A stretch of DNA of 64,000 nucleotides from a virus. The stretch spans positions 1 to 64,000 of the IMG/VR virus record IMGVR_UViG_3300036770_008700; one strand, given 5' to 3'. How positions within the stretch are numbered: position 1 is the first letter of the stretch; each line of letters begins with the position of its first letter. Shown here one piece after another: positions 15,644 to 42,061 of this stretch. The notes under the pieces were generated by a model. It did no database searches. It was not told the DNA's origin and was given only the letters and a program-made list of their open reading frames with translations. The translations under genes and the position numbers were made by a program.

Positions 15644-15970
15644 TTAACCGTTATAGATTCTTAACAAGAAAAGCTTGCCAGTGCTAATCCCAGAATAATG
15701 CATGTCACCAATAATAGGATTTTCTACCATGGTTAGAACCTTAATGGATTCACAGCCAGTTGTTTTCAGAAACACAACATAGTCTCCACATTTAACTCTG
15801 TGCGCTTCTGTCCACCACATACCATCATGAGTTTCCAACAATGTGTAAGATCTAGGAAACGATTCTGAAATATTGTGATCACATTTGGAGCAACGTTCGA
15901 TATCGTTTCCTCGCATATTGCACCGCCAACGATAAACTTTGCCGGTCTTAAGTTTGTCACGCTTCAACAT
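15644..15970 (-). CDS. KLY-related small protein, WRC subfamily
   Basis: 108 residues. It has TGKVYRWRC near the N-terminus, CGDYVVFLK in the middle and IKVLTMVENPIIGDM near the end, so it has the same three-block plan as the KLY family but with extra Cys residues (CSKCDH) and a WRC signature. It overlaps the next upstream gene by 7 nt. Function unknown. Confidence 0.7.
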   Translation of the reverse strand: MLKRDKLKTGKVYRWRCNMRGNDIERCSKCDHNISESFPRSYTLLETHDGMWWTEAHRVKCGDYVVFLKTTGCESIKVLTMVENPIIGDMHYSGISTGKLFLLRIYNG

Positions 15971-16287
15971 ACGTTAGAACTTTCTGAAGAGTGAGCCAGA
16001 AGAAGTTTACCATCTTTAGATGATGATTCATAGTACATCTTTCCAACACAAGGATCAGCTGTCATGGTTAATACAATAATGGATTCATTGTGGATTGGTG
16101 AGATAGGAATAACGTAGTCTCCACAATATACAACGTCTTCATCATTGATTCCTGTTTGGAGAACAATGTAATTTGACCAGTCTGGTATTGTTATATCACA
16201 TCCACAATGATTGAGATTATTATTCGTCAGGCCACACCGCCACCGATATATCTTTCCATAAGCAAGTGTGTCACGAATCTTATTCAT
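15964..16287 (-). CDS. KLY-related small protein, WRC subfamily
   Basis: 107 residues: YGKIYRWRCG, HCGCD, VVYCGDYVIPIS, IIVLTMTADPCVGKMYY. It is collinear with both neighbours, a tandem duplication. Cys positions are conserved among the three, so zinc binding or disulphide formation is possible. It overlaps the upstream gene by 8 nt. Function unknown. Confidence 0.7.
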   Translation of the reverse strand: MNKIRDTLAYGKIYRWRCGLTNNNLNHCGCDITIPDWSNYIVLQTGINDEDVVYCGDYVIPISPIHNESIIVLTMTADPCVGKMYYESSSKDGKLLLAHSSESSNVC

Positions 16288-16585
16288 GGTCCATGAACAG
16301 TTTTATATCATCAGACGACATAATACCAACAACAGGGTCATCATTCATTGTTAATACCCTTATTCCTACAGTTCCGTATTTAGCTAAGGGAACAATGAAA
16401 TCGCCGCAATAAATACTGTCTACCGCTCTCATCATACCTGATGGGAGTGCTTTACCTAAAACACAGTAATCCTTCCAATTATACCTTTCTTTATCACAAG
16501 CACAATCGTTATAGGAATTGTTTGTTTTACCACACCGCCAACGATATATCTTTCCATAAAGAAGTGATTCATGTTTCTTATTCAT
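16280..16585 (-). CDS. KLY-related small protein, WRC subfamily
   Basis: 101 residues: LLYGKIYRWRCGKTNN, DCACDKERYNW, IYCGDFIVPLAKYG, IRVLTMNDDPVVGIM. It is the first of three tandem paralogues. No strong ribosome site or leaderless-type -10 is visible, so its promoter is unclear. Confidence 0.7.
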   Translation of the reverse strand: MNKKHESLLYGKIYRWRCGKTNNSYNDCACDKERYNWKDYCVLGKALPSGMMRAVDSIYCGDFIVPLAKYGTVGIRVLTMNDDPVVGIMSSDDIKLFMDHE

Positions 16586-16626
16586 GTGATATCACCATAT
16601 AGGAAAGATTCTTGTGATTATATCTC

Positions 16627-16959
16627 TCAATCAAATTCGATACTTACACGAACATGCTTGTGTGCATTCCATGGATTGTCAAACCATTCTCCAGCATCAT
16701 TCTCGTTGCTTGCTGGATAATCATAACATGCATCGATTACAATGAAACTTGAACGTTCAAGACTCCTCAGAAAGCTATACAACTCGCCAACATCAGTGTT
16801 GTGTGATGGATACCATTTCACATCTTCTATGTTGTATGCGGTACCTTCTGCATTCTCCAGAACCTCTGCTTCGAAACTGGTAACCAGCATCTCAGAGATA
16901 TGCTGTGGAAGCTTCACGCCAACTTTGTGAGCAAAGAATACATGAGAGCGACTTGACAT
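16627..16959 (-). CDS. Hypothetical protein
   Basis: 110 residues with a weak AGGT ribosome site 7 nt upstream of ATG. Mixed alpha/beta with SFIVIDACYDYPASNENDAG near the C-terminus and several His/Trp residues. It is separated from the RadA-like gene by about 116 bp that contain the pair TGGGCC/GGCCCA (17040-17059). Family not recognised. Confidence 0.6.
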   Translation of the reverse strand: MSSRSHVFFAHKVGVKLPQHISEMLVTSFEAEVLENAEGTAYNIEDVKWYPSHNTDVGELYSFLRSLERSSFIVIDACYDYPASNENDAGEWFDNPWNAHKHVRVSIEFD

Positions 16960-17075
16960 TGGATTACCTGATTTTGTTTTGTTGTTTGTCGGAGACTGAG
17001 CGTTATTCCTTCAGTATGCGCTCCCCACTGTTAGTCTCATGGGCCACAGTCCCGGCCCACAGACCGCAAGACCAA

Positions 17076-17966
17076 TCACTGAGCGAACTCAATACCCTTG
17101 CTGGAAATCTCGTAAGGGAAGAACAGACCCGAAGTCCCAAATCGATTCTTCTGCATCTCGGCAACACGCTGACGATAAGTCTCAGACTTCTTATCAGTAT
17201 CCATCGCAAGGTGCAGGTGACAGTCAACAGCGTGCTTGACTTCCTGCTTACCAGCGAACGTACCATCCTTGGTAACCTGACCAATAATCATGGCAACCGT
17301 CATGTTATCCTTGCACCAAGCAGCGATATCCCACATCGCATCACACTGCTGCTGAGCAGGACCAGCAGGACGACCAGCACCCTTGCTTGCACGCTCAATC
17401 GTCTGAAGAGAATCGACGAAGAGGAAAAAACCCTTTCCAGCCGCAAGAGTGTGCTTCTTCCGAACCTTATCTGCAAAACCAATGATATCAGAGATATCGT
17501 AGAAAGAGCTAAAGTAAGCGTTATCCGACTCCAGAAGAGCGTTAAACTCCATCTTCTCAAGCTTCATCTTGATCTGAGCACCGGACTCTTCGCAAGAGTT
17601 ATACAGCACCACATGACCCTGCTCTGCAAGGCTGTTAGCAAGCTGGAGAGAGATCGTGGTCTTGCCACCACCAGGAAGACCCGTCACCATGCAGCAAGTT
17701 GAAGGACGGATACCCTCACCAGTGAAGAGAGCATCGATGTACTCCCAACCAGTCTTAAGCGTGGTACGCAGAGCATCAGGCACCTTGATATCCGAGAAAC
17801 GACCCGCTTCAACGGATTGAGCGAGACGACCAGCAGCAGCAACCTCAACGTTCTTCTTGGAATTCTTCTTCATAGTCGTGGAAACCTTCTTTGCAGTGGC
17901 ACGCTTCACAACAGCCTTGGTGGTGGTGGTGGTCTTAGCAGCAGCCTTGGTCGTCGTCTTCTTCAT
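17076..17966 (-). CDS. radA: RadA/Sms-like recombination ATPase
   Basis: 296 residues. Residues 1-45 are a Lys/Thr/Ala-rich tail. The RecA-type core follows: Walker A GLPGGGKTT, the RadA-like LYNSCEESGAQIKMKLEKM, Walker B GFFLFVDSLQT, and KNRFGTSGL, matching the KNRFG motif that distinguishes RadA from RecA. It lacks the N-terminal zinc finger and the C-terminal Lon-like domain of bacterial RadA, so it is a minimal version. Probable role: branch migration in phage recombination. It is GC-richer than the surrounding genes. A leaderless-type promoter precedes it. Confidence 0.8.
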   Translation of the reverse strand: MKKTTTKAAAKTTTTTKAVVKRATAKKVSTTMKKNSKKNVEVAAAGRLAQSVEAGRFSDIKVPDALRTTLKTGWEYIDALFTGEGIRPSTCCMVTGLPGGGKTTISLQLANSLAEQGHVVLYNSCEESGAQIKMKLEKMEFNALLESDNAYFSSFYDISDIIGFADKVRKKHTLAAGKGFFLFVDSLQTIERASKGAGRPAGPAQQQCDAMWDIAAWCKDNMTVAMIIGQVTKDGTFAGKQEVKHAVDCHLHLAMDTDKKSETYRQRVAEMQKNRFGTSGLFFPYEISSKGIEFAQ

Positions 17967-18043
17967 GTTCTAAGAATACCAAACGAGGAGGATTTTCTAA
18001 AGATTATTCTGATTTTTTTATTTCGCTGGAATTCCAGGGGTTT
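17967..18043 (-). repeat. 77 bp promoter repeat, copy 1
   Basis: Matches 18827-18903 at 76 of 77 positions. It contains the promoter, an A/T-rich upstream element, and the palindrome CTGGAATTCCAG (18026-18037) about 25 bp upstream of the -35. A related, more diverged version lies at 21276-21352. Confidence 0.85.
17973..18001 (-). promoter_or_regulatory. Leaderless-type promoter for radA-like gene
   Basis: Read on the minus strand: TTTAGA, 17 bp, TATTCT with TGG before it, then 6 nt (TAGAAC) to ATG 17966. The predicted +1 coincides with the start codon. Confidence 0.7.
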
Positions 18044-18806: not shown

Positions 18807-18826
18807 TGTTCTTTCTTCCTTTCGAT

Positions 18827-18903
18827 GTTCTTAGAATACCAAACGAGGAGGATTTTCTAAAGATTATTCTGATTTTTTTATTTCGCTGGAATTCCAGGGG
18901 TTT
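18827..18903 (-). repeat. 77 bp promoter repeat, copy 2
   Basis: One mismatch to 17967-18043. It carries the same palindrome CTGGAATTCCAG at 18886-18897. Confidence 0.85.
18833..18861 (-). promoter_or_regulatory. Promoter with SD leader
   Basis: TTTAGA, 17 bp, TATTCT (TGG before it). In the radA copy ATG follows 6 nt later; here that triplet is ATC, and an SD (AAAGGAAG) plus ATG follow further down at 18806. Confidence 0.65.
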
Positions 18904-20861: not shown

Positions 20862-21275
20862 TCACCAAGGACGATCATCCATACCATCGCTGCTAAGACC
20901 ATTCCTCGCAGCAACAGTGCTGCCTGACTGCACCGGAGAAAACTTTACATGGGAGATTACAGGCTTTGCCTTGAAAATTTCACCGGTCTTCATGTTGTAA
21001 TAAATCACCTGATACCCTCTCGTTCCAAAGCTGAAACCGAAACCTGTCAACAAAAGACTCTCCAGCGCCCGACGCTTAACTTCTGCTTCATTGCAGGTAT
21101 AAATGCTGTGGTCTACACCACGAAGAGTGTTCCAACTAGTAAGCTCAAGCCATTCATGATTGGCATTAAACTTCGATGCCTTGTTAAGAGGATTGCTCTT
21201 CAAAAGATTTTCAATCACAGGATGAAGAGTTGTAGTCATGGGAGCCTTCTTGCTGGTCTTGCTCGTCTTCTTCAT
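20862..21275 (-). CDS. Hypothetical protein with basic N-terminal tail
   Basis: 137 residues. ATG 21275 is preferred because the promoter's predicted +1 falls on it; a longer in-frame start would lie upstream of transcription. It begins MKKTSKTSKKAPMTTT, a Lys/Thr tail like that of the RadA-like protein, then a globular part with FGFSFGTRGYQVIYYN. Family not recognised. Confidence 0.6.
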   Translation of the reverse strand: MKKTSKTSKKAPMTTTLHPVIENLLKSNPLNKASKFNANHEWLELTSWNTLRGVDHSIYTCNEAEVKRRALESLLLTGFGFSFGTRGYQVIYYNMKTGEIFKAKPVISHVKFSPVQSGSTVAARNGLSSDGMDDRPW

Positions 21276-21281
21276 GTTCTT

Positions 21282-21310
21282 AGAATACCACCCAATCATG
21301 ATTTTCTAAA
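21282..21310 (-). promoter_or_regulatory. Leaderless-type promoter
   Basis: TTTAGA, 17 bp, TATTCT with TGG before it, then AAGAAC and ATG 21275. An upstream 14 bp palindrome ACTGGAATTCCAGT (21334-21347) matches the palindrome of the 77 bp repeats. Confidence 0.7.
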
Positions 21311-21390
21311 GGATTATTTTCTTTTTTTATTTCACTGGAATTCCAGTGGTTTTTTGGTCATGCAGCTTGACTAGTCTAGGATTTAATCCC

Positions 21391-21460
21391 TCCCCCTTGC
21401 TACCCCTTGCTACCCCTTGCTACCCCTTACTCCCTCTTGCTCCCCCTTACTACCCCTTGC
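21391..21460. repeat. Seven phased 10 bp iterons, consensus TACCCCTTGC
   Basis: Seven contiguous decamers in exact register (TCCCCCTTGC, TACCCCTTGC twice, TACCCCTTAC, TCCCTCTTGC, TCCCCCTTAC, TACCCCTTGC). They are flanked by the direct repeat CTAGTCTA at 21371-21378 and 21460-21467. A 10 bp period places each unit on the same face of the helix, suggesting cooperative protein binding. It may be a replication origin or regulatory array. Confidence 0.85.
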
Positions 21461-21467
21461 TAGTCTA

Positions 21468-21727
21468 TGTTATTTTGTGGCTAAGTGTTTTTTAGTATGA
21501 TTTTGTTTATTGTGTTATGTGACGATACACTACATCACGTTATGATTTTTTTGATTTTATTTTGGAAGAAGTTTATGGTTGTGACTATTTACCATATTAC
21601 TGGATTACGAGTTTATGAAAACCTAGTGATTTACCTATGTAAATCGTGGTTTTTGAAAACTGGCGTTATTAGCTTACCAGAGGCAATCTGCATCAGCCGT
21701 GTGAATGGCGTTGTTCAGAGGGGCAAT
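21468..21727. other. Non-coding AT-rich region with long hairpin
   Basis: No convincing gene: an 84-codon plus-strand frame here has no ribosome site or promoter. It contains a 36 nt inverted repeat at 21618-21653: outer arms AAAACC/GGTTTT and inner arms GATTTAC/GTAAATC around a CTAT loop. Together with the iterons it makes a structured, roughly 350 bp intergenic region. Confidence 0.5.
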
Positions 21728-22033: not shown

Positions 22034-22139
22034 GGTTTTGTTTTTTTATGAGATTGATTGTGAAGATTGTTGAGTATAGTACGATTGGGAATGAGAGGAA
22101 TCCGTAGATGAAAGCGATTGAGTGAGATAGTATGTTCAT
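22029..22139 (-). CDS. Tiny membrane protein
   Basis: 36 residues starting at an ATG that overlaps the previous stop (TAATG), so it is probably translated by re-initiation. One long hydrophobic helix (about residues 8-29: IAFIYGFLSFPIVLYSTIF and beyond) is followed by a basic end (IKKQNL). Likely a single-span inner-membrane protein. Function unknown. Confidence 0.55.
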   Translation of the reverse strand: MNILSHSIAFIYGFLSFPIVLYSTIFTINLIKKQNL

Positions 22140-22390
22140 TATTCTAGTTTTGCTTCTTGGAATGCGTTAGTGTTTAGGTAGACGTTTAGTTCCCATTTGA
22201 TCCATCCAACGATTCCTTTTGGTGTTAGGATTTTTGAGCTACTTTGGTCTAGAGAGTGTTGTAGCAGTACGAATGGGATATTTGGACTGAGTTGATCAAC
22301 AATTTTTTGTTCTTGATTCCACACGATTCTTGTTCGTGAGTTCTGAGGTGTAACATACATTTTACCTACTTTGAGTTCGGAGAGGGTCAT
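22139..22390 (-). CDS. KLY family protein
   Basis: 83 residues: VGKMYVTP, then PFVLLQ, then SKILTPKGIVGWI. The family plan suggests a small all-beta (SH3-like) barrel: an opening strand with GKLY, a middle FVVLE strand, and a closing hairpin KILTxxGxxGW. This is one of the shorter members. It overlaps the upstream family gene by 4 nt (ATGA). Function unknown. Confidence 0.7.
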   Translation of the reverse strand: MTLSELKVGKMYVTPQNSRTRIVWNQEQKIVDQLSPNIPFVLLQHSLDQSSSKILTPKGIVGWIKWELNVYLNTNAFQEAKLE

Positions 22391-22728
22391 AGTTTGGTTA
22401 AGTGTATATGTGAGTATTGTGGATGGTTTACCACCATGTATTTTACTTCACCTTCTGATGTTAGGATTTTTAGGATATTGTTATTTAGGTGATTTAGTAC
22501 AACGAAGGTATTATTTGGGTACAAGGGTTTGATGGATGTGTTAGTTGTGTATCCATGTGTTTTGAAGTTGATATCTGTTGCTTTATGCATCATGTTTGCG
22601 GCGATATTTGGGTTTGAGAAGTATGTTAGTATTGCTTGAGCTGCCCGTTCTGGTGTTTCGAACAGCAGCCAAACGTTTTCACTGATTGTTTGGTACAATG
22701 CTCCTGAATCAAAGTTTGATGTATTCAT
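22387..22728 (-). CDS. KLY family protein
   Basis: 113 residues: SGALYQTI, FVVLNHL, LKILTSEGEVKYMVV. The usual GW after the turn is replaced by KY. A longer variable segment (about 20-65) carries helical sequence (ETPERAAQAILTYF). It overlaps the upstream gene by 4 nt. Confidence 0.7.
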   Translation of the reverse strand: MNTSNFDSGALYQTISENVWLLFETPERAAQAILTYFSNPNIAANMMHKATDINFKTHGYTTNTSIKPLYPNNTFVVLNHLNNNILKILTSEGEVKYMVVNHPQYSHIHLTKL

Positions 22729-23018
22729 TGATTTGCGTTTTTAATGAGTTTGAAAGTAGACTTGTCTAAGATAAGCCATCCAACAACTCCATTTGTTGTT
22801 AGCACTTTAACACAAAAAAGTGGTTGTCGTTTTGGGTGGGAAAAGCTTGTTTTATCTTTATCCAGCACGACAAAAGGTTGCAAGGCTTTGATTGTGTCAA
22901 CAGTGTCAACAAATCCATCATACCAACGATTATCTTTTGGATGGAATTGACGCATATCGAGATCGATTTTACAGGCATACAGTTTGCCTATTTGCAGGTT
23001 TTCTTGTGTTGTAATCAC
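22725..23018 (-). CDS. KLY family protein, GTG start
   Basis: 97 residues: IGKLYACK, PFVVLDKD, VKVLTTNGVVGWL. It starts at GTG 23018 and is preceded by its own leaderless-type promoter inside the KLY operon, so transcription is probably reinforced here. No Shine-Dalgarno site is visible. Confidence 0.7.
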   Translation of the reverse strand: MITTQENLQIGKLYACKIDLDMRQFHPKDNRWYDGFVDTVDTIKALQPFVVLDKDKTSFSHPKRQPLFCVKVLTTNGVVGWLILDKSTFKLIKNANQ

Positions 23019-23053: not shown

Positions 23054-23359
23054 CTAAATCTGTGTTTTGTCATAGGAAAACACATAAGGCAAATCACTAT
23101 CTTCAAGTGATAACCAACCTACTTCACCTGTTGTTGTTAGAATTTTTACACGATGGACATGGAACGTAGTTTTCTTGTATTTCCTATAGGCAAATATTAC
23201 AGTATGAAGCTCTAACGGAACAAAAGCAAGATCTGGTGATAGCAGTTTGTTTGTGCTTAGTGTGGCATCAGGTTGTTTTGGATCAACCATATCATACATT
23301 GCCATGTAATGTGGAATATGATATAAGCCGCCGAGTTTGATATCCGAGATATTTTTCAT
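23054..23359 (-). CDS. KLY family protein
   Basis: 101 residues: LGGLYHIP, AFVPLELH, VKILTTTGEVGWL. The variable middle is rich in Asp, Pro and Lys. It overlaps the upstream member by 4 nt (ATGA). Confidence 0.7.
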   Translation of the reverse strand: MKNISDIKLGGLYHIPHYMAMYDMVDPKQPDATLSTNKLLSPDLAFVPLELHTVIFAYRKYKKTTFHVHRVKILTTTGEVGWLSLEDSDLPYVFSYDKTQI

Positions 23360-23619
23360 GTTATGATTTCCTCAACGGTTTCACCTTCCCAAAAACGAAG
23401 ATAACCAACCAATCCAGTTTCTGTAAGCACTTTTACAAGAAAGGTTTCATGATACGTATCATGACGAATCACGCTACCAAGTGTTACAAAAGGTGATTGT
23501 TCTTCTATGCGGCCTAATAGATATAGTTTCTCCAAAGTCGGCTTTGTTGCGTCAGCGAGCAACGCTTTAGGAATATCGCAGCAGTATATTTTACCAACTT
23601 TTATTTCTTTGGGGTTCAT
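23356..23619 (-). CDS. KLY family protein
   Basis: 87 residues from ATG 23619, chosen over a longer frame because AAAGAG lies upstream and the family N-terminus starts here. Motifs: VGKIYCCD, PFVTLGS, VKVLTETGLVGYL. Confidence 0.7.
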   Translation of the reverse strand: MNPKEIKVGKIYCCDIPKALLADATKPTLEKLYLLGRIEEQSPFVTLGSVIRHDTYHETFLVKVLTETGLVGYLRFWEGETVEEIIT

Positions 23620-23629
23620 TAATACTCTT

Positions 23630-23902
23630 TCACTCTTTAAGTTCTTTGAACCAATGAGTGCCTGTTGTAAAGTATGCCCAACCAACTTGACCTTTACTTG
23701 TTAGAAGTTTGCAATACCAAGTCATCTTATTTGGATCTTGTTCCTTTTCTAATAGAACCAAACATTCCATAGAAACAAGACTTACTCCTTCTGGAGTAAT
23801 AAGAAGCCATATGTCGGTCATAGCTTCATTCATCATACTAAGCCATATACCTTTATAGAGCTTCCCAACTTCTAAATCTTCTGGAGATAAAGGCAATCTC
23901 AT
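23630..23902 (-). CDS. KLY family protein
   Basis: 90 residues: VGKLYKGI, CLVLLEKE, CKLLTSKGQVGWA. It overlaps the upstream member by 4 nt. The middle segment includes VSLVSMECLVLLEK, more hydrophobic than usual. Confidence 0.7.
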   Translation of the reverse strand: MRLPLSPEDLEVGKLYKGIWLSMMNEAMTDIWLLITPEGVSLVSMECLVLLEKEQDPNKMTWYCKLLTSKGQVGWAYFTTGTHWFKELKE

Positions 23903-24201
23903 GGTTGTGTTACTTGTTTGAAGCAGTAAGGATAATCAAATAGATCGTAATGAAGTTCTGAGGTCCAACCAATGTTACCAGATGTTGTAAGAAGTTTCAA
24001 GCAAAACTGACTATCATGGATTAGTTTTACTTCCAAGACAACAAACCAATCATTTGGTAAAAGCAATGAACCGTAGGTTGAATGTAGGTGTGCCCGAGCG
24101 TATATGGAATGAGGTTTTTTGAATAGTTCAATCGTGTTCATGCGTTCTTCAACCGTATCGTATAAGCCACCAACTTTTAGTTCATGAATATACGTATACA
24201 T
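23899..24201 (-). CDS. KLY family protein
   Basis: 100 residues: VGGLYDTV, WFVVLEVK, LKLLTTSGNIGWT. It overlaps the first gene of this operon by 20 nt. Confidence 0.7.
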   Translation of the reverse strand: MYTYIHELKVGGLYDTVEERMNTIELFKKPHSIYARAHLHSTYGSLLLPNDWFVVLEVKLIHDSQFCLKLLTTSGNIGWTSELHYDLFDYPYCFKQVTQP

Positions 24202-24517
24202 GCTTTACTTCCTCAATGCAACCCTTGGTCCATTCAGCGTCTTCTGGATAAAAAATCCAACCAATCTCTCCATTAGTCGTAAGAATCTTGCAAACCTTAT
24301 CCGTCTGTTCCAACAGCATAAACATGCTGTTTGGTTCAATATGAGAAACATTGCAGTTTAATCGATTGCTCCAATAATCAGTCCATCCTTCGGCGGCGCT
24401 CTCGACGACGGCGTAGGGGTTGGTTATGTCTGCGTGGGCGACGGCAGCAACAATATCCTTCGAAGGATAAAGCATCCAAAAGTATTTCTTGAACTGAAAA
24501 AGCTTTCCAATGTTCAT
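24182..24517 (-). CDS. KLY family protein with GC-rich linker
   Basis: 111 residues: IGKLFQFKKYFWMLYPSKDI, then an Ala-rich linker (about 24-45) encoded by unusually GC-rich DNA (24388-24452), then NCNVSHIEPNSMFMLLEQ and CKILTTNGEIGWI. It is much closer to the four genes at 40883-42061 than to its operon neighbours. First gene of an eight-member KLY operon, driven by a leaderless-type promoter. Confidence 0.75.
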   Translation of the reverse strand: MNIGKLFQFKKYFWMLYPSKDIVAAVAHADITNPYAVVESAAEGWTDYWSNRLNCNVSHIEPNSMFMLLEQTDKVCKILTTNGEIGWIFYPEDAEWTKGCIEEVKHVYVYS

Positions 24518-24523: not shown

Positions 24524-24552
24524 AGTATATCACACCATAAACCGTTTATAAA
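24524..24552 (-). promoter_or_regulatory. Leaderless-type promoter of the KLY operon
   Basis: TTTATA, 17 bp, TATACT with TGA before it, then GGATGT and ATG 24517 (6 nt). Confidence 0.7.
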
Positions 24553-24836: not shown

Positions 24837-25178
24837 TCACATTGTCAGAGAACGCTTCCAAGACTCCATGAAAGAGATAATGTTCTTTGCACCAACAGGA
24901 TTGGCACTATGAACAACATAACTTGGAATAACCATATATTCTGGATTATATTGATTGGCATACCACTTAAGAAACTCCATTGTGGTATCTTTCCCACCAA
25001 GATCATGATCAAACGAACAAAATGCTGGATCACCACAAGTTTCAATAATGTCTTTGGCATCATTGGTTGAGCGAGCAATCAGAATATGCATTCCATCCGG
25101 CCATAAAGATCGGTCAACCATCTCAATGGTTCGTTCGTCATCCAAAAAGAGAATATATTTTCCGTTAAAATCCATCAT
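24837..25178 (-). CDS. Receiver-like protein of the cyclic-phosphate-processing (cREC) type
   Basis: 113 residues. ILFLDDERTIE is the acidic pocket of a receiver fold. CSFDHDLGGKDTTMEFLKW and VVHSANPVGAKNI are motifs I associate with the stand-alone cREC family (named for predicted cyclic-phosphate processing). The histidines are unlike classical response regulators, so phosphotransfer is unlikely. It may act on a cyclic phosphate end of a nucleotide or RNA (inference). Two adjacent ATG codons; the first matches the promoter. Confidence 0.75.
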   Translation of the reverse strand: MMDFNGKYILFLDDERTIEMVDRSLWPDGMHILIARSTNDAKDIIETCGDPAFCSFDHDLGGKDTTMEFLKWYANQYNPEYMVIPSYVVHSANPVGAKNIISFMESWKRSLTM

Positions 25179-25945: not shown

Positions 25946-26244
25946 GACATGTCTTCAAAAAGCTCGCAGGAGTGCGTATAATCGGTTTCTTTCAACCAAT
26001 CAACGAACCATTCACAGATATCATCTCCATCCTTTGCTGAGGCTCCTACGCTCAGGAATGAGGCTTCATATTGCTCACTCCTCCAATGCCAGAAGTTATA
26101 ACATTCCGCAATGCTAAGAGTTACTCCAAATCCATCTTGAATAGCCTTTTGAATGATCTTGCAATAATCGTAAGCGTAATCAACGTTACCATGTCCAGAA
26201 CAACAAAGAAAGTGTAAGTCAATATACTTTTGGTTGATATTCAT
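25942..26244 (-). CDS. Hypothetical protein
   Basis: 100 residues, rich in aromatic residues, Cys and His (LHFLCCSGHGNVDYAYDYC, CYNFWHWRSEQYEASF). AAGGA upstream of ATG. It overlaps a KLY gene by 26 nt at its 5' end. The Cys/His content suggests possible metal binding. Family not recognised. Confidence 0.6.
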   Translation of the reverse strand: MNINQKYIDLHFLCCSGHGNVDYAYDYCKIIQKAIQDGFGVTLSIAECYNFWHWRSEQYEASFLSVGASAKDGDDICEWFVDWLKETDYTHSCELFEDMS

Positions 26245-26461
26245 TTTTCAAATCCTTTAGATGTTTAGCGTATTGAACATATCCAACCAATCCAGTTGGT
26301 GTTAGTACCTTTAACCAAGTAACACAATGAGTTTCGTTTACTTCCAACATAACAAAAGGTGTGTGTTCTTCAGCAATAGAAAAATCTGAAATAGGAGTAA
26401 TCTGATTGTAAATCCTTACAGGATAAGGATACGCATACAGGCTGCCAAGCTTTAAATTCAT
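26219..26461 (-). CDS. KLY family protein
   Basis: 80 residues from ATG 26461, supported by AAAAGAGG upstream and by the family N-terminus. Motifs: LGSLYAYP, PFVMLEV, LKVLTPTGLVGYV. Confidence 0.7.
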   Translation of the reverse strand: MNLKLGSLYAYPYPVRIYNQITPISDFSIAEEHTPFVMLEVNETHCVTWLKVLTPTGLVGYVQYAKHLKDLKNEYQPKVY

Positions 26462-26715
26462 CTGGCCTCTTTTAAATGTTTTCGAGCACAAAGAACATAA
26501 CTCGTGTCTCCATCTGGAGTTAGAATCTTTAGCCAAAGATGCCAGGGTTTTTCTTTTGATGGACGAGGTTCTGATGACTCAGATATTTCTAATGCAACAA
26601 AAGGAGTATGAGCTTTTAGAAGCTTTTTGATGTTGAAGTCTATTGCTGGTGACCTTCTCAAGTTGCAACTAAAAGGATATTGGTATAACTTGCCAACTTT
26701 TACATCATGATCCAT
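26458..26715 (-). CDS. KLY family protein
   Basis: 85 residues: VGKLYQYP, PFVALEI, LKILTPDGDTSYV. GW is replaced by SY. It overlaps the next member by 4 nt and the upstream one by 11 nt; these three genes are recent-looking tandem relatives (LYxYP signature). Confidence 0.7.
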   Translation of the reverse strand: MDHDVKVGKLYQYPFSCNLRRSPAIDFNIKKLLKAHTPFVALEISESSEPRPSKEKPWHLWLKILTPDGDTSYVLCARKHLKEAR

Positions 26716-26950
26716 ACTCGGTTACCTTTTTTAGAAAAGATGGAGCATGACTAACATGCCCAATTTCACCTTTTGCAGTTAACACTTTTAAATATTTAAT
26801 ACTGGACCAGATGGGTGTTGTAAGCTCCAACACAACAAATGGTGTTGCTTTTGGTATGGTAGGTAATAGTGTTGGCTTTCTATCAGCGGGCCAGAGAGTT
26901 ACATCCATAGTAGGATAACAATAAAAACTTCCAAACTTGATATCGCTCAT
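26705..26950 (-). CDS. KLY family protein
   Basis: 81 residues from ATG 26950, with AAAGG upstream. Motifs: FGSFYCYP, PFVVLEL, LKVLTAKGEIGHV. It overlaps the upstream non-family gene by 4 nt. Confidence 0.7.
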   Translation of the reverse strand: MSDIKFGSFYCYPTMDVTLWPADRKPTLLPTIPKATPFVVLELTTPIWSSIKYLKVLTAKGEIGHVSHAPSFLKKVTEYGS

Positions 26951-29828: not shown

Positions 29829-30022
29829 GTAGAAACAATGATTTCTGTATCTTCTGTGATTGTGATTTGAGTTAGTGGAGTCAAAACAACACTTAGTTTT
29901 GGTGCATTTAATGGCCCACCACGAGCTATCGTAACCCTGCAAACTTTGTTGTTGTAGGTGATTAACTCACCTTCCGCAAGATGAGCATTAATCAGATCTT
30001 TTTGCTTTTCATATCTGCGCAT
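29825..30022 (-). CDS. Small basic beta-rich protein
   Basis: 65 residues with a strong AGGGAGG ribosome site. A basic N-terminal helix (RRYEKQKDLINAHLAEGE) leads into strands (ELITYNNKVCRVTIARGG, KLSVVLTPL). Family not recognised. Confidence 0.6.
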   Translation of the reverse strand: MRRYEKQKDLINAHLAEGELITYNNKVCRVTIARGGPLNAPKLSVVLTPLTQITITEDTEIIVST

Positions 30023-30471: not shown

Positions 30472-30813
30472 CTATAAATTTTCCTCAAAGTCCTCAATAC
30501 GATATTCACGAAAATATATTCCAAGTATTTTTAAGTCATCGTCATGCAGTGATAACCAACATAACACACCATTACAAGTCAATATCTTGTAATCATACAT
30601 TGGATCGGTGTCGCTATAACGATAATCACTCAATAATCGTTCTAAAAACACAAATGGTTCTAATGGATATAATGGAATTAACTTGCTGGTTTTATTCAAC
30701 TCTGGACGATTGAGATAAGCTGGCCATGCACCAGAATTCGTGCTAGGATTTCCATGCAAAATATAGAGTTTGCCAGGAATTAGTTTAGAACTTTGAATTC
30801 CCTTGTTAGTCAC
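30472..30813 (-). CDS. KLY family protein, GTG start
   Basis: 113 residues: PGKLYILH, PFVFLERL, YKILTCNGVLCWL. GTG 30813 almost abuts the upstream stop (TGATGTG), so re-initiation is likely. Its C-terminus extends further than in most members (EYRIEDFEENL). Confidence 0.65.
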   Translation of the reverse strand: MTNKGIQSSKLIPGKLYILHGNPSTNSGAWPAYLNRPELNKTSKLIPLYPLEPFVFLERLLSDYRYSDTDPMYDYKILTCNGVLCWLSLHDDDLKILGIYFREYRIEDFEENL

Positions 30814-30814: not shown

Positions 30815-31105
30815 TCATATAACTATACTGAAACTTTTACCGTAATCAATCCCACGAATTTTTGAAAACGTAATGTAATACAAATTTCCATCCTCAAACA
30901 AGATTTTGTAGGAATCCCATACAGACCCTAAATTGTCCACATACTCAATTGCTACAAATGTATTGGATGGATCTAAATACCTTCCTTTCACTACCGCAAA
31001 ACATTCATTCTTTAAAACATAAAATGGCCAAGCAACATCTTGTTCAATGTTTTTATACATCTTTCCAAGCTTAAACAAGTCGCTGTTGTTTTTAATCTTT
31101 GTCAT
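30815..31105 (-). CDS. KLY family protein
   Basis: 96 residues: LGKMYKNI, TFVAIEY, YKILFEDGNLYYI. It shares KNI, SW(D)SYKILFEDGNLY with the next upstream gene, a recent duplicate pair. It overlaps that gene by 14 nt. Confidence 0.7.
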   Translation of the reverse strand: MTKIKNNSDLFKLGKMYKNIEQDVAWPFYVLKNECFAVVKGRYLDPSNTFVAIEYVDNLGSVWDSYKILFEDGNLYYITFSKIRGIDYGKSFSIVI

Positions 31106-31358
31106 TAGACATAATCTCTCGAAATAGAATGTCGAAGTTATGTGTGTCTTTTTTAAAAGTTATCTGATACAGATTTCCATCCTCAAACAAGATTTCGTAG
31201 GAATCCCATGTATAGTTAGGGTAATGTTTAAACCCCAAAACCACGAAACAATTGCCTGGATTTAGATAACCAAGTATTTTTTGGTAATCCAAAGAATACA
31301 ATGTCCAAGACGAGCATTCAGTTATATTTTTATACAACTTACCAATCTTGAGTGACAT
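31092..31358 (-). CDS. KLY family protein
   Basis: 88 residues from ATG 31358, supported by GAAAGG upstream. Motifs: IGKLYKNI, CFVVLGF, YEILFEDGNLYQI. It is the duplicate partner of the downstream gene; nucleotide similarity is obvious in the segment encoding SYEILFEDGNLY. Confidence 0.7.
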   Translation of the reverse strand: MSLKIGKLYKNITECSSWTLYSLDYQKILGYLNPGNCFVVLGFKHYPNYTWDSYEILFEDGNLYQITFKKDTHNFDILFREIMSNDKD

Positions 31359-31363
31359 ACCTT

Positions 31364-31693
31364 TCAGCCCCAACAAATTCTTTCTGAGTCATCAAACACA
31401 ACCAAAAGCCTGCTAATTTTACCTTTAAGTGAAATACAAATTTCAAAACAGTTTGTTTTGACATTGAATTGCATCATATCAATCACAGAAAGTGCTCTAA
31501 TGCAATTCTTTCGGAATGTGTCACCGTCCAAATCACCAAACATATCGTGATTATCTGGTCCACACATTCCCATCAACATTAGAATGCCATATGCGTTATG
31601 ATTGTTAAAGTTGACTTCGGTGCCCCCGCCAACTTGATCTCCATCATCATTGTATACCGCTGGATTGTTCGGGTCAAAGAATGTTACTGACAT
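31364..31693 (-). CDS. Hypothetical protein
   Basis: 109 residues, not of the KLY family. MSVTFFDPNNPAVYNDDGDQ and an Asn/Gly-rich stretch precede MCGPDNHDMFGDLDGDTFRK and C-terminal strands (ISRLLVVFDDSERICWG). The acidic loop could bind calcium. Family not recognised. Confidence 0.6.
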   Translation of the reverse strand: MSVTFFDPNNPAVYNDDGDQVGGGTEVNFNNHNAYGILMLMGMCGPDNHDMFGDLDGDTFRKNCIRALSVIDMMQFNVKTNCFEICISLKGKISRLLVVFDDSERICWG

Positions 31694-31694: not shown

Positions 31695-32015
31695 TTAGAT
31701 TATCCTTTTCCAGTCGCCTGGAAACCAAATTATCCATCCACAGCTACCATCCTCAGTCAACACCTTTATGAAGTTTTGACGAATTACACCGTTTTCCTTC
31801 AAATCAAATTCTAACACAACGTTATTCAAATACACAACGTTTTTGTTTTTTTCTATCAAAGCTATCATTGAGTAACTGCAATGATCTAAATCATAAAAAT
31901 GGATTAAGTGTTCAAAGGTGAGCAGCTCCCGCAACGTCAAGCTTTCATATAGCTTGCCGGGAATCATTGGATTCTTTTGCCATTTAGCTAGCTCTCGTTG
32001 AAACAGATAACTCAT
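31695..32015 (-). CDS. KLY family protein
   Basis: 106 residues: PGKLYESL, NNVVLEFD, IKVLTEDGSCGWI, with an extra N-terminal helix (SYLFQRELAKWQ). It follows the tiny zinc-ribbon gene after about 19 nt. Confidence 0.65.
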   Translation of the reverse strand: MSYLFQRELAKWQKNPMIPGKLYESLTLRELLTFEHLIHFYDLDHCSYSMIALIEKNKNVVYLNNVVLEFDLKENGVIRQNFIKVLTEDGSCGWIIWFPGDWKRII

Positions 32016-32608: not shown

Positions 32609-32637
32609 AGAATATCACAGTAAATAGATTATCTAAA
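32609..32637 (-). promoter_or_regulatory. Leaderless-type promoter
   Basis: TTTAGA, 17 bp, TATTCT with TGA before it, then TTTGGT and ATG 32602. Confidence 0.7.
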
Positions 32638-32938
32638 GATTTAGGTTGATTTTTTTTGGATTAACTTTTTTCCAGTAACCTAAACCAGCTTCGCTAACTT
32701 GTATCCACACTGGACATGCATCGCCAGTTAATACCTTCATCCAGTAATAGTTTACAGATGATGTTGTATACTCAGATATCGATGGCCATATGTCAGCTTG
32801 ATTTTTAATCTCAAGCAAAACAACATATGAACCATCTTCAATATGAACACGATCAAAGTAGTATGAAACACTGCCTGGATTGCCAACATGACCATGAAAC
32901 TTCCAGGGCGCTTTATACAACTTTCCTATCTCCAACAT
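32633..32938 (-). CDS. KLY family protein
   Basis: 101 residues from ATG 32938 (MLEIGKLYKAP); an in-frame ATG at 32953 would add MKKTK. Motifs: IGKLYKAP, YVVLLEI, MKVLTGDACPVWI. Neither start has a clear ribosome site. It lies just downstream of the amidoligase gene and may be co-transcribed with it. Confidence 0.65.
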   Translation of the reverse strand: MLEIGKLYKAPWKFHGHVGNPGSVSYYFDRVHIEDGSYVVLLEIKNQADIWPSISEYTTSSVNYYWMKVLTGDACPVWIQVSEAGLGYWKKVNPKKINLNL

Positions 32939-32994
32939 CTTGGTTTTCTTCATTTGACTGGTAAAAGTAATCAGTAATGTTAAGTAACTTACCT

Positions 32995-34062
32995 TCACAT
33001 AGAAAGGTTCTGAGCCGTGAATCCAGAAAGCTCTTGAATACGCTCCACGTAATAAGCCTTGAGAGACTTGCTAATACCCCGCCAAACTTCATCGGCAACT
33101 GTGGCAGTTGTACGAAGAGAGGTAGGAGTAGGGTCAACACGAGGCTGTGCATACGGGTTGGTAATAGTATAAGACGGATTAGTGTTACCACGCTGGCCGG
33201 GAAGCTTCTTGATAAGAATTCCATGCATGGTCTTGAGTTGTGAGATAGCAACCTTGATACTGCTAGGAGCAAGACCACTGCGATTAGCAATCGTAGCAAG
33301 AAACAACGTGCCACCACCATTGCGGTGACTTGCCATAAACACATCATAAACCTTCTGGCAACCAGAAGTCATGCCAATCCAAGACGCACGAGGACGACCA
33401 CGGCGAGCAGCAGGTTGAGCAACAGTCGCAGCAGAACCCTTTGAAGCTTTAATAAAGGATGAAAGAAATTCAACCCAATTCAGAATGGTATCACCATTGA
33501 TAGAACCAGAATGCTGGCGAAATTCAATCGTGTTATGCTTGGCAAGCGCATGAAGGTTAACCTTGTAATAACGATCAGGCAAAACACGCTGGAGAGCGTG
33601 CATAGTTTGGCAACTTTCAACCATATTAACTACATTAGAACCGCCCTTTGTGTAATACACATCAGAACCACGACGATTGGTAGGCATCATAAGATCAATG
33701 GTGCTCTCAAATTTAGTGTAACGATGGAAAACAGTCTTAACCTCTTCAACGCTAAGATCGCTTGCGTCAATATGAACATGCAATCCACAACTGCGATTAA
33801 CGAATGCACCCATCGCTTGAAGTGTTGCACATACCTTGCGCACAGTGCGCAAATCAGAAGCCTCTTCGGTGTCAAGAACAGGAGACACAAGCTCCATGCT
33901 GAAAAAACCATCAACATCAGACAATGAACCATCGTGCACAATACGCCATTCCGTACCATACCACTTTTCAATCATCAACCCACGCACATGCTTGCGCAAA
34001 TTCTCCACAGTGTTGAGAACGTTCTTGGGGCTGTAGAACTCGATCTCAATTCCGAACTTCAT
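32995..34062 (-). CDS. Amidoligase with AT-hook and winged-helix-like C-terminus
   Basis: 355 residues. Residues 1-205 match the amidoligase (COOH-NH2 ligase, ATP-dependent) family: FGIEIEFYSP at the start, GLHVHIDASD in the middle, and NTIEFRQHSGSIN near the end. These enzymes are thought to join amino groups to carboxylates of peptides or cell-wall components. Residues 218-225 hold RRGRPR, an AT-hook core. Residues 230-290 resemble a winged helix (TLFLATIANRSGLAPSSIKV). A ligase fused to DNA-binding elements is unusual. GC-richer than the neighbours. Confidence 0.75.
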   Translation of the reverse strand: MKFGIEIEFYSPKNVLNTVENLRKHVRGLMIEKWYGTEWRIVHDGSLSDVDGFFSMELVSPVLDTEEASDLRTVRKVCATLQAMGAFVNRSCGLHVHIDASDLSVEEVKTVFHRYTKFESTIDLMMPTNRRGSDVYYTKGGSNVVNMVESCQTMHALQRVLPDRYYKVNLHALAKHNTIEFRQHSGSINGDTILNWVEFLSSFIKASKGSAATVAQPAARRGRPRASWIGMTSGCQKVYDVFMASHRNGGGTLFLATIANRSGLAPSSIKVAISQLKTMHGILIKKLPGQRGNTNPSYTITNPYAQPRVDPTPTSLRTTATVADEVWRGISKSLKAYYVERIQELSGFTAQNLSM

Positions 34063-34068
34063 ACAACT

Positions 34069-34097
34069 AGAATACCAAACGTTAAGAAATTTCTAAA
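34069..34097 (-). promoter_or_regulatory. Leaderless-type promoter of amidoligase gene
   Basis: TTTAGA, 17 bp, TATTCT with TGG before it, then AGTTGT and ATG 34062. It overlaps the inverted repeat AACGTTAAGA (34078-34087) / TCTTAACGTT (34116-34125), whose left arm lies in the spacer and right arm upstream of -35, an operator-like layout. Confidence 0.7.
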
Positions 34098-34125
34098 GGA
34101 ATTCTTTCTTTTTTATCTTAACGTT

Positions 34126-36735: not shown

Positions 36736-37233
36736 ATGGACAGTATTGATAATGTTTGGGAATCTATGGTTGAGATCTTTGGTCCAAATGAATATGCACC
36801 ATTAGCTGCATTTTTAGCTGCTACAGAAGCTCTTCAAATGATAGCGCACAGTCACCATTGGCAAACCAAAGGTGAAAACTTCTATGGCGATCACCTTCTT
36901 TATCAACGTCTGTATGAAGCTATCCTGCCTGAGATAGATTTGATTGGTGAAAAACTGATTGGTGTCAGCCAAGATGTTTCTCTTACCAACTACTTCAAAC
37001 GTGTTAAAGCAATGGAAATGTTTCTTAAAGCTGTAACACACAGCGATCAACCATATATTGTTGTAAGCCATGATGCAGAACTAACATACGTTCGTATGGG
37101 TGGCGAACTAATGGACCAACTAGAACAAGCTGGTTTGCTCACAAGAGGCTTGGAACAAATGCTAGGCAACGTTCTTGACAAACATGAAGAACATATCTAC
37201 TTGCTTGACCAAAGAGTTAAAAGCAACAAATGA
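36736..37233 (+). CDS. Dps/ferritin-like protein
   Basis: 165 residues with AAAGGGA upstream of ATG. HSHHWQTKGENFYGDHLLYQ followed by RLYEAILPEIDLIGEKLI is the Dps-type ferroxidase region (H...D...E on two helices). A four-helix bundle is likely. Dps proteins store iron and protect DNA from oxidants; in a phage it might be a virion-associated or host-protective factor. It overlaps the next gene by 4 nt. Confidence 0.7.
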   Translation: MDSIDNVWESMVEIFGPNEYAPLAAFLAATEALQMIAHSHHWQTKGENFYGDHLLYQRLYEAILPEIDLIGEKLIGVSQDVSLTNYFKRVKAMEMFLKAVTHSDQPYIVVSHDAELTYVRMGGELMDQLEQAGLLTRGLEQMLGNVLDKHEEHIYLLDQRVKSNK

Positions 37234-37856
37234 AACTATATCCAATATTATTTGAGCAACAAGAAACAGAGCATCCTTTCTCTCCAGAGTTGTTTGATGC
37301 TTTAAAAGAGTTTGTTGACAAAAACAATATTGAAAAGCTTGAAGCATTGATGCCAGAAATTAAAGAGTTGGTTTCATCAAACAAGTATCCAAATATAACA
37401 GATCCAAGTGATGTTAAAGTATATCGTGGAATGAAAATCAGCTTTAAACGAGCAGAAGAGCTATGCAAAACTTATCAATGCATAGAAGAAGAAACAAGTA
37501 AAAACAACGTTGTTTATAAGACGTTTAAAGGTTCTGTTGTTGTTCCTACTAAACGTAACGTACAAAGTTGGTCTGGAAATGTTAACGTTGGCATTCAATT
37601 TGCTATGGACCCAGAAATTGGTGGTGAAGTTCCAATCGTGTTCTCGGCAATAGCTTCAAAAGACAAGTTTTTCGGTAAGCCGGGAGAAATTGCAAGAATT
37701 GTTTTGCCAAGACGAGCGAGTGAAATGGAAACAATATCTATTTCTCCAGTAGAATCAGATGGTTTTGTTTTGGCAATTCCACCAGATGATTTCTTTGGAA
37801 GGAATCCAAGTTTAACCGATCCATATACCCTCAAGAAATTGACTTTAAAGCTCTGA
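37230..37856 (+). CDS. Tagged ADP-ribosyltransferase-like protein
   Basis: 208 residues, beginning MKLYPILFEQQETE, the consensus tag. VKVYRGMKISFKRAEEL supplies the Arg of an R-S-E ART, NVQSWSGNVNVGIQFAMD the SxS strand and following helix, and EMETISISPVESDGFVLAIP the late acidic strand. This is the clearest ART in the window. With the tag, an injected host-modifying enzyme is an attractive guess. Translation is coupled to the Dps-like gene (ATGA). Confidence 0.72.
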   Translation: MKLYPILFEQQETEHPFSPELFDALKEFVDKNNIEKLEALMPEIKELVSSNKYPNITDPSDVKVYRGMKISFKRAEELCKTYQCIEEETSKNNVVYKTFKGSVVVPTKRNVQSWSGNVNVGIQFAMDPEIGGEVPIVFSAIASKDKFFGKPGEIARIVLPRRASEMETISISPVESDGFVLAIPPDDFFGRNPSLTDPYTLKKLTLKL

Positions 37857-40299: not shown

Positions 40300-40325
40300 A
40301 TTGATTCCTTTAACATCCCAAACAA

Positions 40326-40841
40326 TCATTCGTCATAAACCTCGCAACCATAAAGACGCCTAATCTTGTCAACTGATTGCTTTGGAATCTTGCACGTATA
40401 ACTTACTTGATAGCAATCTTTGTTTGAAGCAGCTAAAACTACATGGTCTTTCCATGTTGGCTTCATGTTAAGAAACTCAACACCTAGTTGCTGTTGAAAC
40501 AACTCAACAACAGCATTTACCCAGCCCCAGCCGGTTTTAAATGCCATTTGCTTGCCTCGTGGAATATTAATGTTTAGTCGTTGTGTTTTGTAACCAGCAA
40601 TGGTTTCATTCGACCATACAGCTTCATTCAAAGCAATCCAATCATTATTCGAGGTACGTGAGTATGCAGCCGCAAAATCCTTGAGACGACGACCTACTTG
40701 AACATAACATTGTTCTGGCAAAGCATCTACTAATGCTTTTCTTTGCTCGGTCATTGCTTGCTCAAGTGTTGAGTAAAAGTTAACTGTAGTGATTGCTTTG
40801 TCTTTATTGCCAACAAGCATGTAATACGATTTTTGAATCAT
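40326..40841 (-). CDS. Hypothetical protein
   Basis: 171 residues with TAAGGAG upstream of ATG. Starts with a strand-rich section (YYMLVGNKDKAITTVNFYS) and continues with a helix, then GKQMAFKTGWGWVNAVVELF. No catalytic motif is visible. The 26 nt gap to the RuvC-like gene suggests co-transcription. Family not recognised. Confidence 0.65.
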   Translation of the reverse strand: MIQKSYYMLVGNKDKAITTVNFYSTLEQAMTEQRKALVDALPEQCYVQVGRRLKDFAAAYSRTSNNDWIALNEAVWSNETIAGYKTQRLNINIPRGKQMAFKTGWGWVNAVVELFQQQLGVEFLNMKPTWKDHVVLAASNKDCYQVSYTCKIPKQSVDKIRRLYGCEVYDE

Positions 40842-40882
40842 AATGGTGACTCCTTACGCTAAGTTATCACACACGTTTTTCT

Positions 40883-41185
40883 TTATAAACCAATATCAAA
40901 ACATTCATTATCACACCAATCATCAGGAACAAAAATCCATCCAAGCTGTCCATTGTTTGAAAGAACTTTTAAACAATTTCTATCTCGCTCAATCAAACAG
41001 AATATACTCTTTGGTTCAAGATAAGAAACGTTGCAGTTTAAATGAAATGAATAATATTTGGCTGCATCGCTGGTGTCTCGAAGACTACATCGTCGAATAG
41101 CAATGCTGCTGTGTAGGATACTATCTTTTGAAGGATACAACAACCAAAAGTATTCCTTGATTTGATAAAGCTTTCCAACATTCAT
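40883..41185 (-). CDS. KLY family protein
   Basis: 100 residues: VGKLYQIKEYFWLLYPSKDS, NCNVSYLEPKSIFCLIER, LKVLSNNGQLGWI. Last of four tandem, closely related members. Its linker is not especially GC-rich. It overlaps the upstream member by 4 nt. Confidence 0.75.
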   Translation of the reverse strand: MNVGKLYQIKEYFWLLYPSKDSILHSSIAIRRCSLRDTSDAAKYYSFHLNCNVSYLEPKSIFCLIERDRNCLKVLSNNGQLGWIFVPDDWCDNECFDIGL

Positions 41186-41475
41186 TGGTTTACTTCCTCA
41201 ATATAGTTCTTGTCCTTGTAAAAATCAGAAAGATAAATCCAACCAAGCTCACCATTAGTTGAAAGGATTTTACAGAACTTACCATCTTGCTCCAAAAAAC
41301 AGAAAATGCTTTTTGGAGAAATATATGAAACGTTGCAGTTATATTCCTTGCTATAATAAGCGGCGGCGGAGGCGGTGGTGTCGAGGGAGGCGAAGAGGAA
41401 GGCGTCAGCAATATCCTTTGAAGGATAAAGTAACCAAAAATACTTCTTGACTTGATAAAGCTTTCCGATGTTCAT
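41182..41475 (-). CDS. KLY family protein with GC-rich linker
   Basis: 97 residues: IGKLYQVKKYFWLLYPSKDI, an Ala/Thr linker (ADAFLFASLDTTASAAAYY) encoded by GC-rich DNA at 41360-41411, NCNVSYISPKSIFCFLEQ, CKILSTNGELGWI. Four-base overlaps on both sides. Confidence 0.78.
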   Translation of the reverse strand: MNIGKLYQVKKYFWLLYPSKDIADAFLFASLDTTASAAAYYSKEYNCNVSYISPKSIFCFLEQDGKFCKILSTNGELGWIYLSDFYKDKNYIEEVNQ

Positions 41476-41768
41476 TGATTTACTTCCTCAATATCGGCTT
41501 TGCACCAATCAGCAAGATTAATCCAACCAAGTTCTCCATTAGTTGAAAGAATCTTGCAACAATACCCATCTTGTTCCAAGAGCATAAAAATGCTGTTTGG
41601 AAAAATATATGAAACGTTGCAGTTGAAACGCTTGCTATAATAATCAGCGCCCTCTACGGCTTCGGTGAAGGAGGCTCCAGCAACAGCGGGGTAGGTGGCG
41701 ACTTCATCCTTTGAAGGAAAAAGAAACCAAAAGTATTTCTTGGCTTGATAAAGCTTTCCAACATTCAT
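41472..41768 (-). CDS. KLY family protein with GC-rich linker
   Basis: 98 residues: VGKLYQAKKYFWFLFPSKDE, a linker TYPAVAGASFTEAVEGADYY (GC-rich DNA at 41646-41702), NCNVSYIFPNSIFMLLEQ, CKILSTNGELGWI. Outside the linker it is nearly identical to its neighbours. Confidence 0.78.
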   Translation of the reverse strand: MNVGKLYQAKKYFWFLFPSKDEVATYPAVAGASFTEAVEGADYYSKRFNCNVSYIFPNSIFMLLEQDGYCCKILSTNGELGWINLADWCKADIEEVNQ

Positions 41769-42061
41769 TGATTTACTTCCTCAATGCAACCCTTTGCCCA
41801 ATCTTTATTTTTTGGATAAATGATCCAACCAAGTTCTCCGTTGGTTGAAAGAATCTTGCAAAATCGTCCATCTTGTTCCAAAAAACAGAAAATGCTTTTT
41901 GGAGAAATGTATGAAATATTGCATTTGAAATACGTGCTCCAATAATCAGCAACAGCGGCGGTGGCGGCGGCGGCCAGATCGTCTTCGGCGGCAGCAATCT
42001 CCTTTGAAGGAAAAAGGAGCCAAAAATACTCCTTGACTTGATAAAGCTTTCCAACATTCAT
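41765..42061 (-). CDS. KLY family protein with GC-rich linker
   Basis: 98 residues from ATG 42061, fixed by a leaderless-type promoter. VGKLYQVKEYFWLLFPSKEI, an Ala-rich linker (AAAEDDLAAAATAAVADYW; GC-rich DNA at 41950-41997), CNISYISPKSIFCFLEQ, CKILSTNGELGWI. First gene of the four-member cluster. Confidence 0.78.
   Translation of the reverse strand: MNVGKLYQVKEYFWLLFPSKEIAAAEDDLAAAATAAVADYWSTYFKCNISYISPKSIFCFLEQDGRFCKILSTNGELGWIIYPKNKDWAKGCIEEVNQ

Follow-up and report, generated by a model that had tools for sequence, protein, structure and literature searches.

Bacillus phage G carries a family of about 35 zinc ribbons which is called unprecedented and is proposed to comprise transcription factors or DNA-binding proteins (PMC7824862). 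Nip, the SpbK inhibitor of Bacillus phage phi3T, has predicted SH3-like domains and acts by binding a defence complex (PMC11984713), a precedent for such domains in counter-defence proteins of phages. The target-contacting loops of SH3 domains are the RT and n-Src loops, and Fynomers were obtained by engineering these loops in the human Fyn SH3 domain so as to bind chosen targets (PMC4022905). Here we describe a family of small phage genes, predicted to encode SH3-like barrels, which is expanded to 26 copies in a stretch of 64,000 nucleotides (the window), corresponding to bases 1-64000 of the 122,895-base IMG/VR virus contig IMGVR_UViG_3300036770_008700. The phage G family is the nearest published expansion found: it is likewise a lineage-specific expansion of a small domain, of comparable size and in a very large phage, but it has another fold and proposed role, and loop hypervariability is not reported in the passage describing it. 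No report of a phage family of this size, fold and loop pattern was found in the open-access literature.

A sequence-only reading of the window had proposed at least 29 copies, 26 of them sharing a GKLY-type opening, an FVVLE-type strand and a KILTxxGxxGWI-type hairpin, and all 29 open reading frames (ORFs) exist at the coordinates it gave. The ORFs of the contig with at least 45 aa were searched together with shuffled and reversed decoys by an iterative hidden Markov model (HMM), which was seeded with the single ORF 41182-41475. After three rounds the search settled on precisely these 26 genes of the window and four outside it, the best shuffled or reversed decoy reaching E = 0.07. When each gene was held out together with every relative of more than 35% identity, 26 of 26 genes were significant (leave-one-out E from 2e-21 to 1.4e-4), and as judged by these profiles the 26 genes are certainly one family. 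Five further members were identified outside the window (contig positions 98068-101212), resulting in a contig total of 31 besides the three WRC genes described below. In Pfam, PHROGs and NCBIfam no family matched more than one member, the best E-values being 0.0016 (PHROGs) and 0.01 (NCBIfam and Pfam). The curated cut-off of Pfam SH3_3/SH3b was not reached (best SH3_3 E = 0.012, for one of 29 members).

All members in the window are encoded on the minus strand, and the tandem runs described earlier (eight, three, four, four and four) are found again, the fourth as three plus one. The run of eight consists of 22139-22390 (leave-one-out E = 1.3e-12), 22387-22728 (8e-10), 22725-23018 (2e-14, GTG start), 23054-23359 (3e-10), 23356-23685 (1.4e-9, with a likely later start near 23620), 23630-23902 (1.8e-12), 23899-24201 (1.3e-12) and, at its head, 24182-24517 (5e-20), which belongs to the FW subfamily. 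The run of three comprises 26219-26536 (9e-11, likely later start near 26460), 26458-26715 (4e-10) and 26705-26974 (2e-8), and the following run of four 28482-28799 (1e-6), 28780-29106 (1.5e-6), 29103-29417 (1e-11) and the head gene 29408-29692 (2e-15). Next come 30009-30326, the most divergent of the 26 (1.4e-4), 30472-30813 (1e-9), which has an orthologue of 56% identity in a 260-kb relative, 30815-31105 (5e-9) and 31092-31376 (1e-10). The last run is an FW array of 40883-41185 (5e-16), the seed gene 41182-41475, 41472-41768 (2e-21) and the head gene 41765-42061 (1.5e-15), and the three singles are 27749-28054 (5e-11), 31695-32015 (1e-12) and 32633-32998 (2e-11).

Overlaps of 4 nt had been noticed between the genes, and eight window junctions are indeed 4-nt ATGA overlaps. 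In close arrays the downstream gene has its GAGGAAG ribosome-binding site within the last codons (IEEVNQ) of the preceding gene, whose stop codon overlaps the downstream start. Each gene is a small cassette; in the close arrays its 3' end provides the ribosome-binding site and, by overlap, the ATGA start for the following copy, and copies could therefore be added or removed with expression left intact. A TAWACT box is located 6 nt before the ATG of three array heads in the window, for example as TATACT at 24524-24529 and 42068-42073 (both minus strand), and in relatives; the count in the window (3 versus 1.5 expected) is exceeded in strength by the scan of the related contig L023, and a role of the box as array-head promoter element is suggestive only.

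The fold was predicted for the FW member 41182-41475 by AlphaFold2 with a 118-sequence alignment (mean predicted local distance difference test, pLDDT, 90.6; predicted template modelling score, pTM, 0.81). The model is a five-strand barrel with RT hairpin, n-Src loop, distal hairpin and 3-10-like turn; its strands span residues 6-9, 14-17, 50-52, 57-64, 67-72, 77-81 and 92-94, its helices 20-24 and 34-44, and a short turn 84-87. Nearly all Foldseek matches in the PDB are SH3 or SH3b domains (Sho1, Hck, Lck, Lyn, endolysin, NlpC) with probabilities of 0.9-1.0 and E-values of 0.02-0.5, none below 0.001, and small SH3 proteins are also among the matches in a viral library. Furthermore, the family profile weakly matched three chains of the Pex13p SH3 domain among PDB sequences (E = 0.0013-0.005). 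The earlier guess of a small SH3-like barrel is thereby borne out for one member, and a single fold for the family is supported; the predicted fold of the family is an SH3-like barrel, one member being modelled with confidence.

Based on the Pex13p alignment and the model, we place the GKLY motif on the ALYDY strand, FVVLE on the strand that follows the RT hairpin and KILTxxGxxGWI on the distal hairpin; in this mapping the variable segments are the RT and n-Src loops. The core is strongly conserved (G 100%, Y 93%, L 97%, G 97%), and the RT-loop insertion has a mean of 18 and a maximum of 42 residues. From the aromatic surface of eukaryotic-type PxxP binding (ALYDY, W118, P133, Y136) the first Tyr alone is kept, and the W118-equivalent position is mixed Y/F/C/W. 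Orthologues shared with the 260-kb relative have a median identity of 40% (n = 9), whereas the figure for 31 similarly sized neighbouring genes is 72% (p = 1.5e-5). Hence the fixed core and fast-changing linkers of the sequence-only reading correspond to a barrel with RT and n-Src loops that differ between copies, most visibly in the scrambled tract of the FW subfamily. The arrangement recalls Fynomers, in which the target is determined by changed RT and n-Src loops on a constant SH3 frame, but Fynomers are laboratory-made for chosen targets, whereas the family here is natural and phage-encoded and its RT loop is longer and variable in length. Nip is likewise a phage protein with predicted SH3-like domains; it is, however, a single gene for 279 aa with two SH3-like domains and an HU-like domain, the likeness being one of description.

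In the FW subfamily (24182-24517, the array 40883-42061 and, in the relatives of 260 kb and 48 kb, most copies) the tip of the RT hairpin is encoded by a tract rich in guanine and cytosine (GC), with a mean GC of 0.57 and up to 0.71 compared with 0.35 in the rest of the genes. In the window such hypervariable RT-loop tracts were located on the minus strand at 24363-24462 (GC 0.58 versus 0.36 in the rest of that gene), 41343-41425, 41639-41717 and 41927-42023, the last with a near-perfect GCC/GCG triplet run at 41955-41974. Sister copies are 72-84% identical before the tract and 60-73% after it, yet only 29-43% within it, little more than the 24-37% of shuffled tracts. The ratio of non-synonymous to synonymous substitution rates (dN/dS) is 0.2-0.7 in the framework, and the flanks are under purifying selection; the values of 0.7-1.2 in the inserts are only indicative since the inserts barely align. 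GC islands as such were considered as a trait of the family alone and this was rejected, because other genes, for example the RecA-like gene, have islands too; specific to the FW subfamily is an island at the same place in nearly all members.

New loops would arise most simply by GCN-triplet expansion with later substitution and selection. The tracts show a codon phase: one group has NNG codons, mostly GCG, the others have NNC codons, mostly GCC, and near-perfect in-frame GCC/GCG runs survive. For comparison, the variable proteins of diversity-generating retroelements, which have a C-type lectin or immunoglobulin fold, also combine a constant scaffold with a localised hypervariable segment; here no reverse transcriptase was found, the tract varies in length and the fold is SH3. 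The localised variability and the unusual base composition of the tract would suit diversification by such a retroelement or capture from high-GC host genes instead of triplet expansion, but we consider this improbable, given that the tract lengths differ by up to 14 codons among FW copies and that the in-frame runs persist. No reverse transcriptase (PF00078) was detected in four contigs (G000, G001, G002 and G003, including the 260-kb contig; all possibly incomplete, and a template repeat was not searched for), which makes a retroelement in cis unlikely. Host-gene capture is disfavoured in particular by GC at codon position 2, which nearly equals that at position 3 in the tracts, unlike in high-GC coding DNA.

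Searches with the family, RecA and MnmA led to related contigs, and the profile that links the window genes extends the expansion to them. For the 260-kb contig, whose RecA is 92% identical, 41 members were counted within the 51 kb read; the numbers are 47 for a 65.6-kb contig, 22 for a 241-kb contig and 7, 6 and 5 for fragments. Overall about 160 members were counted, with 5-47 per related contig on contigs of up to 260 kb, and the high copy number in these contigs shows that the expansion is a property of the phage clade as a whole. No SH3-like family was detectable in four contigs of 235-356 kb from more distant large phages with a Dps homologue (33-35% identity to 36736-37233), which consequently appear to lie outside the clade. 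Relatives of the family were found neither in INPHARED phages (tblastn) nor, as confirmed members, in GTDB genome contigs searched by profile with the FW alignment. Bases 18400-18700 of L024 are undetermined in the FW array of this 48.6-kb relative, whose FW copy number is therefore uncertain. As a separate observation, positions 1-16000 of the 65.6-kb relative (L018) contain a second expanded family of at least five pentapeptide-repeat proteins, which open like MEASELKKILDQHKLW and are interleaved with the SH3 arrays.

Comparison of close relatives points to turnover of the arrays. L028, in which the flanking DNA is 66-80% identical, has 35 bp in place of the four-gene array 40896-42106, and the array is absent from the 260-kb relative as well; the WRC block is absent from L016, whose RecA gene is 84% identical in DNA. 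On these alignments arrays are gained and lost as whole blocks between close relatives. In a phylogeny of 120 domains, which has too few columns for deep forks and serves for lineage clustering only, part of the family clusters by genome and part is shared between genomes. As the sequences show, this family of single-domain proteins has been enlarged by tandem duplication within a clade of large uncultivated phages. Tandem arrays, presence and absence between close relatives and lineage-specific clades would also be expected if the copies were mostly by-products of tandem duplication (accordion amplification), small ORFs with little selected function being tolerated. This we regard as quite unlikely: nearly all of the roughly 160 ORFs are uninterrupted and share one conserved core, the framework dN/dS given above indicates constraint, ribosome-binding sites and overlaps are preserved in close arrays, and contigs with only 59-70% MnmA identity still have the expansion.

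The three remaining genes of the sequence-only reading, WRC members 1 (15644-15970), 2 (15964-16287) and 3 (16280-16585), are also encoded on the minus strand. Member 2 is 42% identical to member 1 and member 3 is 49% identical to member 2, and four cysteines are conserved across the trio. The first profile did not link them to the family (E = 0.05, 1.5 and 1.7). They were later compared with a 159-member profile from seven contigs, from which the trio was excluded, in three alignments. Two of these gave E-values of about 1e-4, 0.01 and 0.04-0.06 for members 1, 3 and 2, all better than every decoy (decoys from 0.22), whereas the third gave 0.0017, 0.037 and 0.2, the weakest of which falls below the best decoy (0.087). 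Over all alignments member 3 thus ranges over 0.01-0.04 and member 2 over 0.04-0.2. Profile-profile comparison of the trio with the family (HHalign) resulted in E = 5e-5 and a probability of 67%. The AlphaFold2 model has a similar strand order, but with a pLDDT of 50 its confidence is too low for use, and no relatives of the trio were found in the viral contigs. The WRC genes are probably a Cys-rich branch of the SH3-like family; of the "at least 29 copies", 26 are certain and these three probable.

With respect to function, the family genes lie among non-structural genes and, apart from one doubtful case in the 65.6-kb contig, on one strand per contig. A hydrophobic segment is absent from nearly all members, and the net charge varies from -12 to +10 with a median isoelectric point of 5.5-6.3. 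Eight other ORFs of the contig have an N-terminal MKLxxILFE-like motif resembling the capsid-targeting sequence (CTS), a T4-like propeptide (PMC7411985), and no family member has it. Missing CTS-like motif, rare hydrophobic segments and widely differing charge together fit soluble intracellular proteins without one common nucleic-acid ligand. The first Foldseek match is an endolysin with SH3b domains and, together with the SH3_3 match of one member mentioned above, would be in line with cell-wall-binding SH3b modules or virion components for entry or lysis. Compared with the SH3b domains of endolysins and NlpC/P60 proteins, which have the same barrel by Foldseek, the proteins here are standalone, without a catalytic domain or significant SH3b sequence match, and very numerous as paralogues. 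The lack of a catalytic partner or repeat architecture, the position of the genes outside the tail module, the scarcity of hydrophobic segments and the missing CTS-like motif make a cell-wall or virion role highly improbable.

Nucleic-acid-binding regulators, such as transcription or translation factors, would be another use of the barrel, as in KOW, Tudor and Sm-like proteins, and would parallel the roughly 35 zinc ribbons of phage G. SH3-like barrels of other families do bind nucleic acid, RecA-like, exonuclease and RuvC-like genes adjoin family genes, and phage G has a large lineage-specific expansion of a putative DNA-binding domain (PMC7824862). We nevertheless judge this role unlikely: the charge range and acidic median isoelectric point speak against it, invariance concerns structural glycines, L and Y rather than a basic patch, and the hypervariable Ala/Gly/Arg/Asp loops are ill-suited to a single ligand type.

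We favour a reading as binders, which agrees with the inhibitors or adaptors facing different host proteins, for example anti-defence factors, of the sequence-only reading. In its favour are the barrel kept by selection while RT and n-Src loops vary, the divergence of orthologues beyond that of neighbouring genes, the gain and loss of whole blocks, the clade-wide expansion and a cREC conflict gene near or between arrays, with Nip and Fynomers as precedents. Each protein would be a soluble intracellular binder whose two loops dock on a different host protein, inhibiting or redirecting it; defence proteins or takeover targets would be the likeliest partners, and copy number and loop scrambling would then represent the phage side of an arms race. 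That the family is an expressed set of binders or inhibitors built on the SH3 scaffold and directed at host factors is, in our view, an evenly balanced possibility. A fuller version is tentative and rather doubtful: it would be a natural repertoire in which in-frame expansion of GC-rich triplets renews the RT loops and selection diversifies them, the copies neutralise different host (defence) proteins and whole arrays are exchanged as cassettes. Several points weigh against the binder reading. No match to a known defence or anti-defence family was obtained for any member, only one member is modelled with confidence, the classical aromatic PxxP-binding surface is kept only in part and the scrambled GC tract is confined to the FW subfamily. 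In addition, dN/dS above 1 is not established in the inserts, the values of 1.0-1.2 resting on poor alignments.

Among the neighbouring genes, 24837-25178 (minus strand) encodes a cREC cyclic-phosphate processing receiver domain (PF20274), and a cREC gene lies near or adjoins family members in three relatives. For this domain a part in cyclic-nucleotide or RNA-repair conflicts has been proposed (PMC7824862). A putative amidoligase (PF12224) at 32995-34062 adjoins a family member and could modify a peptide or protein. The MKLSKILFE-like N-terminus, which ends with an L/IxE-type site, was found in 1582-2271, 7425-8762, 9655-10479, 11142-11546, 11568-12422, 13797-14339, 14312-14860 and contig positions 96557-97282, the bearers being otherwise unrelated proteins; similar-looking N-termini occur in several others, for example 10537-11133 and 37230-37856. 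Proteins with this N-terminus may be packaged and injected.

The source virus is a large tailed phage. Tail- or baseplate-like genes extend over 45-64 kb of the window and a PolIII-alpha-like polymerase over 2.4-7.4 kb, and RecA-like, RuvC-like and Dps-like genes are present; where these labels have no library match they come from reading the sequences. No near relative of the region was found among 50,697 INPHARED phage records (megablast, tblastn), and the RecA-like protein and the polymerase have about 25-30% identity at best to those of database phages. The PolIII-alpha-like gene (2389-7370) is split by ORF 4223-5185, which has zinc-finger-like motifs and is probably a homing-type insertion; it is 99.7% identical in L016 (12409-14110), where the surrounding polymerase is 93-97% identical, and this difference suggests recent homing. 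A 90-nt element occurs three times with 82-93% identity (17954-18043, 18814-18903 and 21263-21352), with a shorter fourth copy at 34068-34098, and is possibly a shared promoter or processing signal. A 10-nt tandem repeat, about CCCTTGCTAC, is located at 21380-21472. The proteins 7425-8762 and 42503-43918 have an N-terminal domain in common (EEQGGYFIHFSNVPRIGLYIVNKYNTPIGFYAYPL), the latter having LRV/HEAT repeats in addition.

Phage counter-immunity proteins have usually been found one by one. A clade with 20-47 paralogues of one scaffold would offer a ready panel with which new defence systems and targets of host takeover could be sought. Should the loop scrambling of the FW subfamily prove adaptive, it would constitute a way to targeted protein diversity that needs no retroelement. 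The tracts would represent natural loop sequences on the scaffold that is used for engineered Fynomer binders.

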